DNA of 64,000 nucleotides from Bradyrhizobium sp. PSBB068 (GTDB taxonomy: Bacteria; Pseudomonadota; Alphaproteobacteria; Rhizobiales; Xanthobacteraceae). The notes beneath the pieces are model-generated. The model saw nothing but the letters and a program-made list of their open reading frames with translations, was not told the DNA's origin and did not search any database. How positions within the stretch are numbered: the stretch's first letter is position 1; each line of letters opens with the position of its first letter. Location of the stretch: positions 4,278,001-4,342,000 of the forward strand of contig CP069300.1 of the NCBI GenBank assembly GCA_016839165.1, given 5' to 3'. Below are positions 1 to 16,842 of the stretch, in pieces. A program made the translations under genes and the position numbers.

Positions 1-235
1 CCGCGCGCTTTTCGGGCGCATCGTCCACCACGACGATCATGATATCGCCGGGCTTGGCGTCCTCGAGCGCCGGACTCATCAGCCCGGCCTGCTGCAGGAA
101 TTCCTTGTTGCTGCGCGTTCCCATCAAGAGCGTGACCCGCTGCACGCCGGTCCGCGCCACCGTGACCTGCGAGATCCGCATCAACGACACGGAATCCTTG
201 TACAGGTTCGCCTTAATGCTGGATTGGATGGCCAT
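1..235 (-). CDS. FdrA-like protein, N-terminal part (cut by window edge)
   Basis: Reading leftward from an ATG at 235, the frame stays open to the window edge (78 codons). The N-terminus (MAIQSSIKANLYKDSVSLMR) matches in layout the N-terminus of the FdrA/AllF protein at 1359-2867: both have a Y-x-DSVxLMR block, then an M-GT-x-N segment and an AGL segment. FdrA-type proteins are subunits of oxamate carbamoyltransferase or of related uncharacterised carbamoyltransferases. This would be a second paralogue, downstream of the carbamate kinase and separated from it by 159 bp with no gene. Only the N-terminal lobe is visible, so length and function cannot be judged. Confidence 0.7.
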   Translation of the reverse strand, partial: MAIQSSIKANLYKDSVSLMRISQVTVARTGVQRVTLLMGTRSNKEFLQQAGLMSPALEDAKPGDIMIVVVDDAPEKRA

Positions 236-394
236 GGCCCTGTCGTTCCCTTGAATCCCGCAGGCTGCTTGTTGGTCTTGTGCTAGAGCCTCAGCCGGCG
301 GCCAGCTCGATTGCCTAATCAGTTGAGGCGCCGATCCGGCGTCTCAATTGCTTTGGCGCGGGCGGATGTCCCGCCGAAGCGCCAGTCCCGTTGG

Positions 395-1354
395 TTATTG
401 AACGACATGCGTCCCGGTCTCGCCCCGCAGCGCCGCCATCGCGCAATCGAGGTGACTGATGATCGCCCGTTTGCCTCCGCCTTCGAGAAACCGGATGGCG
501 GCATCGACCTTGGGTCCCATGCTTCCAGGAGGAAAGTGTCCCTCACGATGGTAAGCCTTGAGCTCTTCGAGGCTAACCTGATCCAGGTCCCTCTTGTTCG
601 GCTTGCCGAAATTCACCGCGACGCGCGGGACCGCTGTCAGGATCAGCAGCTCCTCGATGCCCAACACATTCGCGATGTGGGCCGATGTCAGGTCCTTGTC
701 GATCACGGCCGGCACGCCGGTGCGCACGCCCTTGGCGTCGCGGACCACGGGAACGCCGCCGCCGCCGCCGGCAATGACAATTGTTCCCCGCTTGACCAAT
801 GCGTCGACCAGCGAGATGTCGCAGACATGCTTGGGCTTCGGCGACGGTACGACATGACGCCAGCCGCGCCCCGAATCCTCACGCATCGCCCAGTTGAGCT
901 CGTCGCTGATCTTCTTCGCCTCGTCCTCGGAAAAGAACGGCCCGACGAACTTGGTCGGATTCCTGAACGCGGGATCGTCCTTGTCCACCTCGACCTGGGT
1001 CAGCAGGCTTGCCACGTGTCGCTGGTTGCCCTGCTCGCGCAGCGCATTCTCGATCGCCTGCATCAGGAGATAGCCGATGCCGCCTTGGCTGTGCGCGACG
1101 CAGATGTCCATGTCCATCGGCGGAATCCGGCTCATCGTCAGCATCTGGCGCATCATGATCTTGCCGACCACCGGGCCGTTGCCGTGGGTGATGACCAGCT
1201 CGTTATCGAGCTGCGCCAACGGCAGCAGCGCTTCCGCGGTGATCTGCGCGACCGACTTCTGCTCCTGCGACGTACCCCTGATATCCTCGGGGTGAACCGC
1301 ATTGCCGCCGATCGCGACCACCAGGCGACGCGGTACGTCATTGAGTGTACGCAT
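395..1354 (-). CDS. arcC: Carbamate kinase
   Basis: 319 residues, the normal size for carbamate kinase, which transfers phosphate from carbamoyl phosphate to ADP and releases carbamate. Family motifs are clear: VAIGGNAV near the N-terminus, HGNGPVVG about residue 56, a GGGGGVPVV glycine loop in the middle and AVIDKDL after it. The ATG at 1354 has a GGGGAG SD eight bases upstream, inside the end of the AllF gene; the two genes are only 4 bp apart. Sitting directly behind oxamate carbamoyltransferase genes, its likely job is to turn carbamoyl phosphate into ATP, as AllK does in enterobacterial allantoin fermentation. Confidence 0.93.
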   Translation of the reverse strand: MRTLNDVPRRLVVAIGGNAVHPEDIRGTSQEQKSVAQITAEALLPLAQLDNELVITHGNGPVVGKIMMRQMLTMSRIPPMDMDICVAHSQGGIGYLLMQAIENALREQGNQRHVASLLTQVEVDKDDPAFRNPTKFVGPFFSEDEAKKISDELNWAMREDSGRGWRHVVPSPKPKHVCDISLVDALVKRGTIVIAGGGGGVPVVRDAKGVRTGVPAVIDKDLTSAHIANVLGIEELLILTAVPRVAVNFGKPNKRDLDQVSLEELKAYHREGHFPPGSMGPKVDAAIRFLEGGGKRAIISHLDCAMAALRGETGTHVVQ

Positions 1355-1358
1355 TTCC

Positions 1359-15020: not shown

Positions 15021-15145
15021 GAGCTAAAGATCCTTCCCTCGGATGCAGGGGTTCGTCGCCTGGCGCGACGCCCCCTCACCCGCCGGACCAGCATGGCATC
15101 GCCGGAGGCTGGCCGTTGAAGTTCATCCATTGCCCCGGGTGAGGC

Positions 15146-16033
15146 TCAGGCAGCCGCGACCTCGTGGCCCGCCATGACTTCCAGCGCCTTCAAGATCGCC
15201 GAATGGTCCCAGGCTTTGCCGCCGAGCGCGGTACAGGTGTTGAACAGCTGCTGGGCAGCTGCCGTACCTGGCAGCGACAACCCGAGTGCCCGCGCGCCTT
15301 CGAGCGCAAGGTTGAGATCCTTCTGATGCAGCTCGATGCGGAAGCCTGGATCGAAGTTGCGCTTGATCATGCGGTCGCCATGCACCTCGAGGATCCGGGA
15401 CGAGGCGAAGCCGCCCATCAGCGCCTTGCGCACCAGCGCGGGATCGGCGCCCGCCTTGGAGGCGAACAGCAGGGCCTCGCTCACCGCCTCGATGGTCAAA
15501 GCCACGATGATCTGGTTCGCAACCTTGGTGGTCTGGCCGTCGCCATTGCCGCCGACATGGGTGACGTTCTTGCCCATCGTCTCGAACACCGGCTTCATCG
15601 CATTGAACGCCCGCTCGCGCCCGCCGACCATGATGGTCAGGCTTGCCCCCTTGGCACCGACCTCGCCACCGGAGACCGGTGCGTCGAGATAGTCGGCGCC
15701 GAGCGCATCGATCTTGCGGGCGAACTCCTTGGTCGCCAGCGGCGAGATCGAGCTCATATCGACCACGATCATGCCCTTGGAGACGCCCTCCGCGACGCCG
15801 CCCTCGCCGAACAGCACGGCTTCGACATGCGGCGTATCCGGCACCATGATAATGACGGCGTCCGCCTCCTGCGCGACTTGCTTGCCGGACTCGCAGGCGA
15901 TGCCGCCGGCAGCAATCAGCTCCGGCGCGAGCGGCGTGACGTCGTGCAGGAACAGGCGATAGCCCGCTGCCAGGAGGTGGCTCGCCATCGGACGTCCCAT
16001 GGTGCCGAGCCCGATGAATCCTATGTCCTTCAT
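15146..16033 (-). CDS. glxR: 2-hydroxy-3-oxopropionate (tartronate semialdehyde) reductase
   Basis: 295 residues of the beta-hydroxyacid dehydrogenase family. The NAD(P) motif GFIGLGTMGRPMASHL opens the protein, the substrate-binding DAPVSGGE block follows at about 117-124, and the catalytic Lys is in GQTTKVANQ (about residue 170). The ATG at 16033 has an AGGAG SD. It reduces tartronate semialdehyde, made by Gcl and interconverted by Hyi, to D-glycerate. It lies 23 bp after hyi, in the order gcl-hyi-glxR that is standard for glyoxylate assimilation from allantoin or glycolate. The family's gluconate-type dehydrogenases are excluded mainly by this context. Confidence 0.92.
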   Translation of the reverse strand: MKDIGFIGLGTMGRPMASHLLAAGYRLFLHDVTPLAPELIAAGGIACESGKQVAQEADAVIIMVPDTPHVEAVLFGEGGVAEGVSKGMIVVDMSSISPLATKEFARKIDALGADYLDAPVSGGEVGAKGASLTIMVGGRERAFNAMKPVFETMGKNVTHVGGNGDGQTTKVANQIIVALTIEAVSEALLFASKAGADPALVRKALMGGFASSRILEVHGDRMIKRNFDPGFRIELHQKDLNLALEGARALGLSLPGTAAAQQLFNTCTALGGKAWDHSAILKALEVMAGHEVAAA

Positions 16034-16056
16034 TGTCGTCGCTCCTGTCCGCCGGA

Positions 16057-16842
16057 TTAAGTCACGAGAGTGTGTGCGGCGTGCCAGGCAAGGCTCTCGA
16101 GCGTGGTCGACCGCGGCTTGTATTCGCATCCGATCCAGCCCCGATATCCGATGCTGTCGAGATGCTTGAACAGATAGGGATAGTTGATCTCGCCGGTGCC
16201 CGGTTCGAAACGGCCCGGATTGTCGGCGAGCTGGACATGCGCGATCCGGCCGAGATGCTTCTGCAGCGTTCGTGACAGATCACCTTCCATGATCTGCATG
16301 TGATAGATGTCGTACTGGATGAACAAATTGGGTGAGCCCACGTCGGCAATGAGCTGCACCGCCTGTTCCGTCCCGCTCAGGAAGAAGCCGGGAATATCGA
16401 GCGTGTTGATCGGTTCGATGAGAAGCTTGATGCCATGCTGCGCGAGCGCGCCGGCAGCGAAGCGCAGATTGGGCACCAGGACTTCGCGCAGCTCCGCCGC
16501 GTCCGCGCCAGTGGGAGCGATGCCGACCAGGCAGTTCAGCTGCCGGCAGTCCAGTGCCTTCGCGTAGTCGATCGCGCGCACCACGCCGTCGCGGAATTCA
16601 TCGACCCGGTCGCGCAGGATCGCAATGCCCCGCTCGCCGGCAGCCCAATTGCCGGCCGGCAGATTGTGCAGCACCTGGGTCAGCCCAGAGCGCGCCAATT
16701 CCTCGCGCAACGCGCCTTTCTCGAACTCGTAGGGAAACAGATACTCGACAGCATTGAAGCCGGCGGCCTTGGCGGCTGCGAACCGGTCGAGGAACGGCAG
16801 CTCGTTGAACAGCATGGTGAGATTGGCGGCAAATTGAGGCAC
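16057..16842 (-). CDS. hyi: Hydroxypyruvate isomerase
   Basis: 261 residues, a xylose-isomerase-like TIM barrel. Blocks typical of Hyi are FAANLTMLFNELPFLDRF at the start, GFNAVEYLFPYE, IEPINTLDIPGFFL in the middle, and FIQYDIYHMQIMEGDL. The start is a GTG at 16842 with a GGAG about nine bases upstream. It converts hydroxypyruvate to tartronate semialdehyde for GlxR. It lies between gcl (39 bp upstream) and glxR (23 bp downstream), all on the same strand. Confidence 0.92.
   Translation of the reverse strand: MPQFAANLTMLFNELPFLDRFAAAKAAGFNAVEYLFPYEFEKGALREELARSGLTQVLHNLPAGNWAAGERGIAILRDRVDEFRDGVVRAIDYAKALDCRQLNCLVGIAPTGADAAELREVLVPNLRFAAGALAQHGIKLLIEPINTLDIPGFFLSGTEQAVQLIADVGSPNLFIQYDIYHMQIMEGDLSRTLQKHLGRIAHVQLADNPGRFEPGTGEINYPYLFKHLDSIGYRGWIGCEYKPRSTTLESLAWHAAHTLVT

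Follow-up and report, generated by a model that had tools for sequence, protein, structure and literature searches.

Which nitrogen compound is served by a compact set of carbamoyltransferase, importer and hydrolase genes in Bradyrhizobium sp. PSBB068? The set lies at the start of the 64,000-nucleotide stretch of DNA analysed here (the window, C1:4278001-4342000 of the 7.67-Mb genome), where positions 395-14966 hold the oxamate carbamoyltransferase proteins AllF, AllG and AllH, carbamate kinase, a Liv-type importer, HpxW-, PuuE- and AtzC-like hydrolases and a TetR regulator, together called module 1. These genes probably import and break down oxalurate-type nitrogen waste. Our best explanation, in which we place rather better than even confidence, is a TetR-controlled module that scavenges oxalurate, or a ring opening to oxalurate, with the same operon running on past position 1 into a second module (module 2) for a second ureido acid. 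We computed which genes are present and where they recur, the operator-like sites they share, the clades, the single AllH and a segment that moves between proteins, and we infer every substrate and transport ligand.

Gene content and recurrence of module 1

An earlier note on this DNA, made from the sequence alone, had placed AllF, AllG, AllH and carbamate kinase here, and all four exceed their curated profile cut-offs. On the minus strand, carbamate kinase (395..1354) matches TIGR00746 with 366.3 bits (cut-off 358.25), the AllF subunit AllF1 (1359..2867) matches PRK06091 with 480.4 bits (433), AllG1 (2864..4114) matches PF06545 with 307.9 bits (27) and AllH (4496..5434) matches PF11392 with 72.1 bits (25), the last being the sole AllH found by profile search in the genome. 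AllF1 is without the C-terminal segment present on E. coli AllF, and AllG1 is without an N-terminal extension. The importer lies beside AllH, also on the minus strand, and consists of a LivM-LivG-LivF triple fusion of a permease and two ATPase domains (5449..7983), a LivH-type permease (7980..8855, under the LivH equivalog cut-off) and a Liv-type substrate-binding protein (8896..10098, under the family cut-offs). The fusion is 844 residues long, and related module-1 loci match its full length in one frame. That the importer and allH form a co-transcribed unit is plausible from their shared strand and intergenic spacings of -4, 14 and 40 bases, while a hairpin described below splits AllH from AllG.

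The hydrolase and regulator genes follow. On the plus strand, the PuuE-like hydrolase (10229..11212) aligns with PuuE across 224 residues and misses the PuuE cut-off (TIGR03212, 129.8 vs 424.6 bits). The AtzC-like amidohydrolase (11230..12432, plus strand; start codon uncertain, scanned as 11212-12432) scores 547.9 bits against PRK05985 (cut-off 408). The pair had been described as PuuE-like and cytosine-deaminase-like; both genes are indeed present, but the second falls below the cytosine deaminase cut-offs (PRK07572, 185.1 against 438; PRK09230, 161.8 against 483; PRK07583, 134.1 against 403) and is AtzC-like instead. Its best PDB matches are AtzC-type (6nbo; AtzC alignments), and the AtzC metal-site motifs HxH, H, H and D are kept, aligned as GHIHLDK, DIHLHD, SHAY and GNDN, whose residues we take to bind metal. 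The TetR-family regulator (12557..13330, plus strand) is weakly RutR-like (TIGR03613, 51 bits, cut-off 368).

The HpxW-like protein (13374..14966, minus strand) has the gamma-glutamyltransferase fold, though it stays under the general gamma-glutamyltransferase cut-off (302.7 vs 357.85 bits). Its top PDB match is 5hft (chain A 287.4 bits, chain B 262.8 bits), named gamma-glutamyltranspeptidase in the database listing and presumably HpxW of the HPX pathway; the alignment covers both chains, and Thr344 falls on the first residue of chain B, so that the chain-junction Thr is kept. These matches fit the proposed identity as an oxamate amidohydrolase. Here the HpxW-like gene travels with the carbamoyltransferase, whereas K. 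pneumoniae is said in PMC11326118 to lack allFGHK. In three related genomes a second HpxW-like gene (40-41% identity) stands after carbamate kinase (L100:4715-6262, L101:4711-6258 and L158:4714-6261; L numbers denote loci).

AllG (PF06545) is patchily distributed: the family has it in 48 of 391 genomes, the order in 21 of 297 and the phylum sample in 16 of 398, where one match is below cut-off. Surrounding sequence was retrieved for a selection of these loci, and near-copies inflate the counts, as L042/L157, L044/L103 and L043/L105 look like the same contigs by length and match, and 14 Bradyrhizobium loci are closely related. These 14 (L029-L042) keep this order of genes to the limits of their contigs, L033 being cut before AllG1. 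The importer, AllFGH, carbamate kinase and the AtzC-like, PuuE-like and TetR genes recur without module 2 in L051 (same genus), L099, L100, L101 and L158, accompanied by HpxW in four of the five (exception L099). HpxW lies between AllH and AllG1 in L050, L100, L101 and L158, and a reduced module 1 in L118 is without the AtzC-like gene and HpxW. Distant forms (L056, L102, L110, L112) combine AllF and AllG with an AtzC-like gene, have the importer in three of four cases and show no PuuE-like gene. Distant AllG homologues with neither an AllF match nor AllH nor the small segment also occur, in diverse settings (L060, L063, L064, L066, L114 and others); these probably have other functions.

Module-1 genes also share an operator-like site. 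In the window it is found upstream of a 62-residue gene, as AAGTAAGTGTTTTCTT adjoining TTGAC (4358..4373, minus strand), and between the divergent binding-protein and PuuE-like genes, as AAGTAAAAACTTTCTT (10174..10189, plus strand). In upstream alignments read by eye, AAGTAAnnnnTTTCTT stands beside TTGAC with at most one mismatch in all eight regions between divergent importer and PuuE-like genes and, ahead of the small gene, in 10 of 11 (exception L056). The exact pattern, derived from the same two sites that the search then returned, has two occurrences in the 7.67 Mb, each upstream of module genes, and its reversed control has none. Among the loci chosen for comparison, 17 of 20 with module 1 have the site at up to one mismatch, against 2 of 18 others (L043 and L044); in L050 one such site lies directly upstream of HpxW. 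The TetR protein would be the natural candidate to bind these sites.

A terminator-like hairpin of 10 pairs followed by T7 comes after AllH (4437..4459, minus strand) and separates it from the small gene and AllG1. It is more stable than most shuffled versions (z -2.89; 1 of 200 shuffles equally stable). Terminator-like sites number 15 in 19.9 kb against 11.0 expected, so that the count alone proves nothing. A search for sigma-70-type promoters returned none between AllH and the small gene, and two in the whole region against 2.2 expected.

The 62-residue gene and its segment

The gap between AllH and AllG1 holds a 62-codon gene (4125..4313, minus strand) with GGAG upstream, which the earlier note missed, as it did the second module. 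A profile match identifies it as a free-standing copy of a segment of about 54 residues that in E. coli forms the C-terminus of AllF; at the N-termini of AllG2, the AllG of module 2, and of E. coli YahG, about 55 residues match that same C-terminus. The 62-residue protein has 126 homologues in a search that accepts only proteins of similar length; lengths among the 120 listed run from 56 to 94 residues, with most at 61-65, and where a name is given it is hypothetical protein, FdrA protein or FdrA domain protein. It matched no Pfam family at E 0.01. In 30 comparisons of free-standing copies with the copy in the window, near-copies included, the proportion of nonsynonymous differences (pN) is 0.100 and that of synonymous differences (pS) 0.397, and codon positions 1, 2 and 3 carry 154, 108 and 400 differences. 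Because of its homologues, the low pN relative to pS and the third-position bias, the open reading frame is a real gene under selection.

The segment follows the AllF/AllG pair. Run over all frames of the loci, its profile is positive in 58 of 60 loci with both AllF and AllG and in none of 24 with AllG and no AllF match, one of which (L055) is cut at AllG. Copies lie at the start of AllG in 41 cases, in a separate small gene in 31 and at the end of AllF in six, and on the AllG tree (53 rows) these three states need four changes. Of the two negative loci, L049 has its AllG cut by a contig end and an AllF match resembling a succinyl-CoA ligase gene. The other, L057, is a true miss and, together with L111, where two AllG genes stand with a single segment and one is without a neighbouring copy, counts against our best explanation. 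A 97-residue open reading frame before AllG in L057 was considered as the small segment and rejected as dissimilar by eye.

We see about an even chance that oxamic transcarbamylase is a four-part enzyme whose segment of about 54 residues moves between the AllF C-terminus, the AllG N-terminus and a gene of its own, and that AllF and AllG form a ureide phosphorylase family acting on oxalurate (the all genes and module 1) and on at least three further ureido acids (those of module 2, of the yah genes and of a TrtA-linked class, the last perhaps allophanate or biuret). We infer that the 62-residue protein is needed as an enzyme subunit. E. coli AllFGH was purified and assayed (PMC11326118), and the purified AllF of 555 residues includes the segment (Table 5 of that paper), so the activity of that enzyme is no argument against a role for it. 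Among the open-access papers that searches listed, judged by title and abstract beginning, none treats the 62-residue protein or module 2.

The second AllF/AllG pair and related gene sets

The earlier note had proposed extending the sequence beyond position 1, and there the operon does continue, with a second carbamoyltransferase pair, a nucleoside-type importer and a RutB-like hydrolase. The N-terminal part of AllF2 lies in the window (1..235, minus strand), and its gene extends past it as L003:14640-16235. Downstream on the same strand come AllG2, just outside the window and the second of two AllG genes in the genome, then a BMP-type binding protein, an ATPase, two permeases and the RutB-like cysteine hydrolase (L003:7645-14643). 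Module 2 also occurs alone, in L043 and L044, beside a divergent gene (LysR by eye); within about 10 kb on either side of it there is neither AllH nor carbamate kinase, and both genomes (G552 and G396) have an AllG1-type locus at another place (L106 and L156). In Pandoraea (L045), module-2-type AllF and AllG stand beside carbamate kinase and AllH.

Quick trees, supported by the Shimodaira-Hasegawa-like approximate likelihood ratio test (SH-aLRT) only and with several long branches flagged, separate the two pairs. On the AllG tree (75 rows, no bootstrap, 13 near-copy loci left out), AllG1 and E. coli AllG fall in a 28-row group (SH-aLRT 96) and AllG2 in a separate 13-row group (98); YahG with five relatives (100) and seven AllG proteins encoded beside TrtA/BiuH-type hydrolases (94) make groups of their own. 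The AllF tree (51 rows) returns the same classes, one group each, with labels assigned by the analyst partly from tree and segment state. The one-group result for modules 1 and 2 is consequently not independent, as the context labels drew on both. By blastp score AllG2 and AllF2 are nearest to YahG and YahF, and AllG1 to AllG; in percent identity AllG2 is about equally close to the two E. coli proteins of its kind (45.1 and 46.6).

The module 2 cysteine hydrolase belongs to the isochorismatase family and keeps the catalytic Asp, Lys and Cys positions. It lies below the cut-offs for RutB (TIGR03614, 157.1 vs 377.95 bits) and BiuH (140.4 vs 370 bits), is without the BiuH/TrtA motif DKPGKG, does not keep the Lys145 and Gln215 positions (for the roles of Lys142, Lys145 and Gln215 in BiuH/TrtA see PMC7948467), and groups apart from BiuH and TrtA on a hydrolase tree that left out L030-L039 and in which eight rows are overlapping-frame fragments without the motif columns. 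In nitrifiers, allFGHK beside trtA/biuH has been interpreted as serving oxalurate degradation (PMC12625717). Module 2 resembles that system in its kind of importer and in having an isochorismatase-family hydrolase beside AllF and AllG, and differs in that its hydrolase is RutB-like, not BiuH/TrtA, and in its AllG group.

Pairing of AllF/AllG with TrtA/BiuH-type hydrolases is seen in seven loci (L047, L107, L142, L146-L149), whose hydrolases have DKPGKG in every case and the Gln in all except L149. Two of them (L142:5398-13616 and L146:1959-8078) encode a TrtA-like hydrolase, AllH, AllF, AllG and carbamate kinase, then a free-standing allophanate-hydrolase C-terminal domain (PF21986, 140.7 bits in L142 and 133.3 bits in L146); in L142 a cytosine/purine/allantoin-type permease and LysR come next. 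This suggests that the TrtA-linked class works on biuret- or allophanate-like compounds, the range of AllF and AllG being wider than oxalurate, and the L142 and L146 operons may possibly form an ATP-yielding biuret or allophanate route. AllF2/AllG2 as a replacement for a missing allophanate hydrolase was rejected because AtzF is encoded in the genome (806 bits).

Both kinds of set occur in E. coli, as allFGHK and as the yah genes. Module 1 shares AllF, AllG, AllH and carbamate kinase with E. coli allFGHK (PMC11326118), and its AllG falls in the same group. In contrast to that system, module 1 has no allantoin genes, adds the Liv importer and the AtzC-like, PuuE-like and HpxW-like hydrolases, and encodes the C-terminal segment of E. 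coli AllF as the separate 62-residue protein. In E. coli K-12, yahE, F, G, I and J (L119:4926-11508) are, in a row, homologues of AllH, AllF, AllG, carbamate kinase and AtzC, and as judged from these homologies they look like a second transcarbamylase-like operon. YahG and YahF form their own groups, the segment is fused to YahG, and YahJ is 36% identical to the AtzC-like protein over 390 residues. None of the four open-access papers listed as naming yahEFGIJ assigns a function, as far as titles and abstract beginnings tell.

Substrate and proposed pathway

Uptake and carbamoyl-phosphate-yielding cleavage of oxalurate by module 1, and of a second ureido acid by module 2, is the most likely role. 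In the proposed pathway, the Liv-type importer would bring the ureide in, and the PuuE-like and AtzC-like hydrolases would convert cyclic or amino precursors to oxalurate. AllF1, AllG1, AllH and the 62-residue subunit would then use phosphate to cleave oxalurate, giving oxamate and carbamoyl phosphate; from the latter carbamate kinase would yield ATP, ammonia and CO2, and HpxW would turn oxamate into oxalate, releasing the last ammonia. AllF2 and AllG2, from the same operon, would carry out the same chemistry on a second ureido acid, probably sharing the single AllH and the carbamate kinase. The idea of an oxalurate/oxamate module with its own importer, already put forward for this stretch, gains from its recurrence without module 2, the shared operator-like site and the grouping of AllG1 with E. 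coli AllG.

Where oxalurate would come from is narrowed by the rest of the genome. Classical allantoin genes had been called missing, which holds for the module, but PuuE (523.5 bits) and an allantoate amidohydrolase (576.7 bits) lie elsewhere in the genome, at C1:1.76 Mb. AllB and AllD do not reach their cut-offs anywhere in the genome (best 283.8 vs 357.85 bits and 202 vs 496.2 bits), and ureidoglycolate lyase (AllA, PF04115) has no match there. Lacking both an AllD above cut-off and any ureidoglycolate lyase match, the genome shows no sign of the usual oxalurate source; as its allantoin genes lie outside the module, an external supply or another ring is the probable origin of oxalurate. On the same grounds (AllD under cut-off, no ureidoglycolate lyase, PuuE and allantoate amidohydrolase elsewhere) allantoin was rejected as the module 1 substrate. 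A further PuuE-family match lies at window positions 41690-42361 (TIGR03212, 86.7 bits, below cut-off).

Some findings weigh against our best explanation. The AtzC-like genes of the distant forms L056, L102, L110 and L112 are just 32-34% identical, and AtzC-like and PuuE-like genes are not always found together in module-1 loci. Several module-1 stretches (L099, L118, L056, L102, L110 and L112), some of them truncated where a contig ends, show no HpxW, which means that the oxamate step is not shared by all. Even with one mismatch allowed, no operator-like site stands before HpxW in the window or anywhere in L003, the module 2 stretch. A stricter pattern that fixes the spacing from GAC to AAGTAA at two bases recovers the 10174 site alone from the genome, since this spacing is one base shorter at 4358.

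In a more specific form of the oxalurate explanation, which we think possible and yet doubtful, the pathway starts from parabanate or a hydantoin-type ring, which the PuuE-like enzyme opens to oxalurate. The ring that PuuE opens is a five-membered ureide, and the alignment of the PuuE-like protein with PuuE spans the 224 residues mentioned above. A 1965 paper, known to us by its title in reference lists, reportedly describes induction of oxamate transcarbamylase by parabanic acid in Streptococcus. Burkholderia cenocepacia grows with parabanic acid as nitrogen source, according to PMC5491218. However, the stretches with an AtzC-like and no PuuE-like gene (L056, L102, L110, L112) and the size of the PuuE-like family, with at least 8000 relatives, speak against such an entry, and it is an attractive guess rather than a result, built on enzyme families and the title of the 1965 paper. 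Less probable is a changed specificity of AllF1, AllG1 and AllH, so that module 1 would act on a ureido acid other than oxalurate: AllF and AllG occur in several clades with different companion genes, and specificity may therefore vary, but AllG1 groups with the proven E. coli enzyme and an oxamate-hydrolase-like gene often accompanies the module.

Nitrogen-rich compounds of the biuret and s-triazine kind appear far less probable. Module 2 could be a biuret or triuret pathway in so far as the nitrifier allFGHK adjoins biuH/trtA and bmpA-nupABC (PMC12625717), yet the cysteine hydrolase here meets neither the residues (DKPGKG, Gln) nor the cut-off of BiuH and groups apart from BiuH and TrtA, and we give the idea little credence and rejected both substrates for module 2. 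Slightly more remote again is a service of the module to an s-triazine or ammelide-like ring through the AtzC-like enzyme. The best PDB matches of that enzyme are AtzC-type, and AtzE- and AtzF-type genes exist elsewhere in the genome; these are about 2.2 Mb distant, however, no cyanuric acid hydrolase match was found among the module genes scanned, and the s-triazine route to our knowledge requires no oxalurate-type enzyme. The AtzF- and AtzE-type genes (allophanate and carboxybiuret hydrolases) lie close together on opposite strands at L184:7190-11973 (C1:6.48 Mb).

On the far side of HpxW the oxalurate module is bordered by GlxR, Hyi and Gcl, within a stretch (15146-22225) that also encodes IclR, a CBS protein, a PanE/ApbA-family reductase and an FAH-family protein. 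The glyoxylate genes had been counted with the module, a view we gave up because their adjacency to HpxW is not conserved: it is seen in two of the five same-genus genomes compared (L171 and L172) and absent in three (L169, L170 and L173, the last with L051). A PanE-type oxalyl-CoA reductase is found in Methylobacterium, and such an enzyme could link the oxalate from HpxW to glyoxylate, again with the caveat of that adjacency.

The locus is a variant of the known allFGHK system, with a free-standing segment gene and a second AllF/AllG pair as its new parts. It was in 2024 that genes for oxamic transcarbamylase were described (PMC11326118), and whether further catabolic transcarbamylases act on different ureido compounds was an open question in a 2018 review (PMC6022934). 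In this genome a single AllH and a single neighbouring carbamate kinase seem to serve both AllF/AllG pairs, which allows specificity to be assigned to AllF and AllG. Expression of a module-1-type AllFGH would omit the small protein unless its existence were known, and through its parallel with the uncharacterised E. coli yahEFGIJ genes the locus offers a handle on their role.

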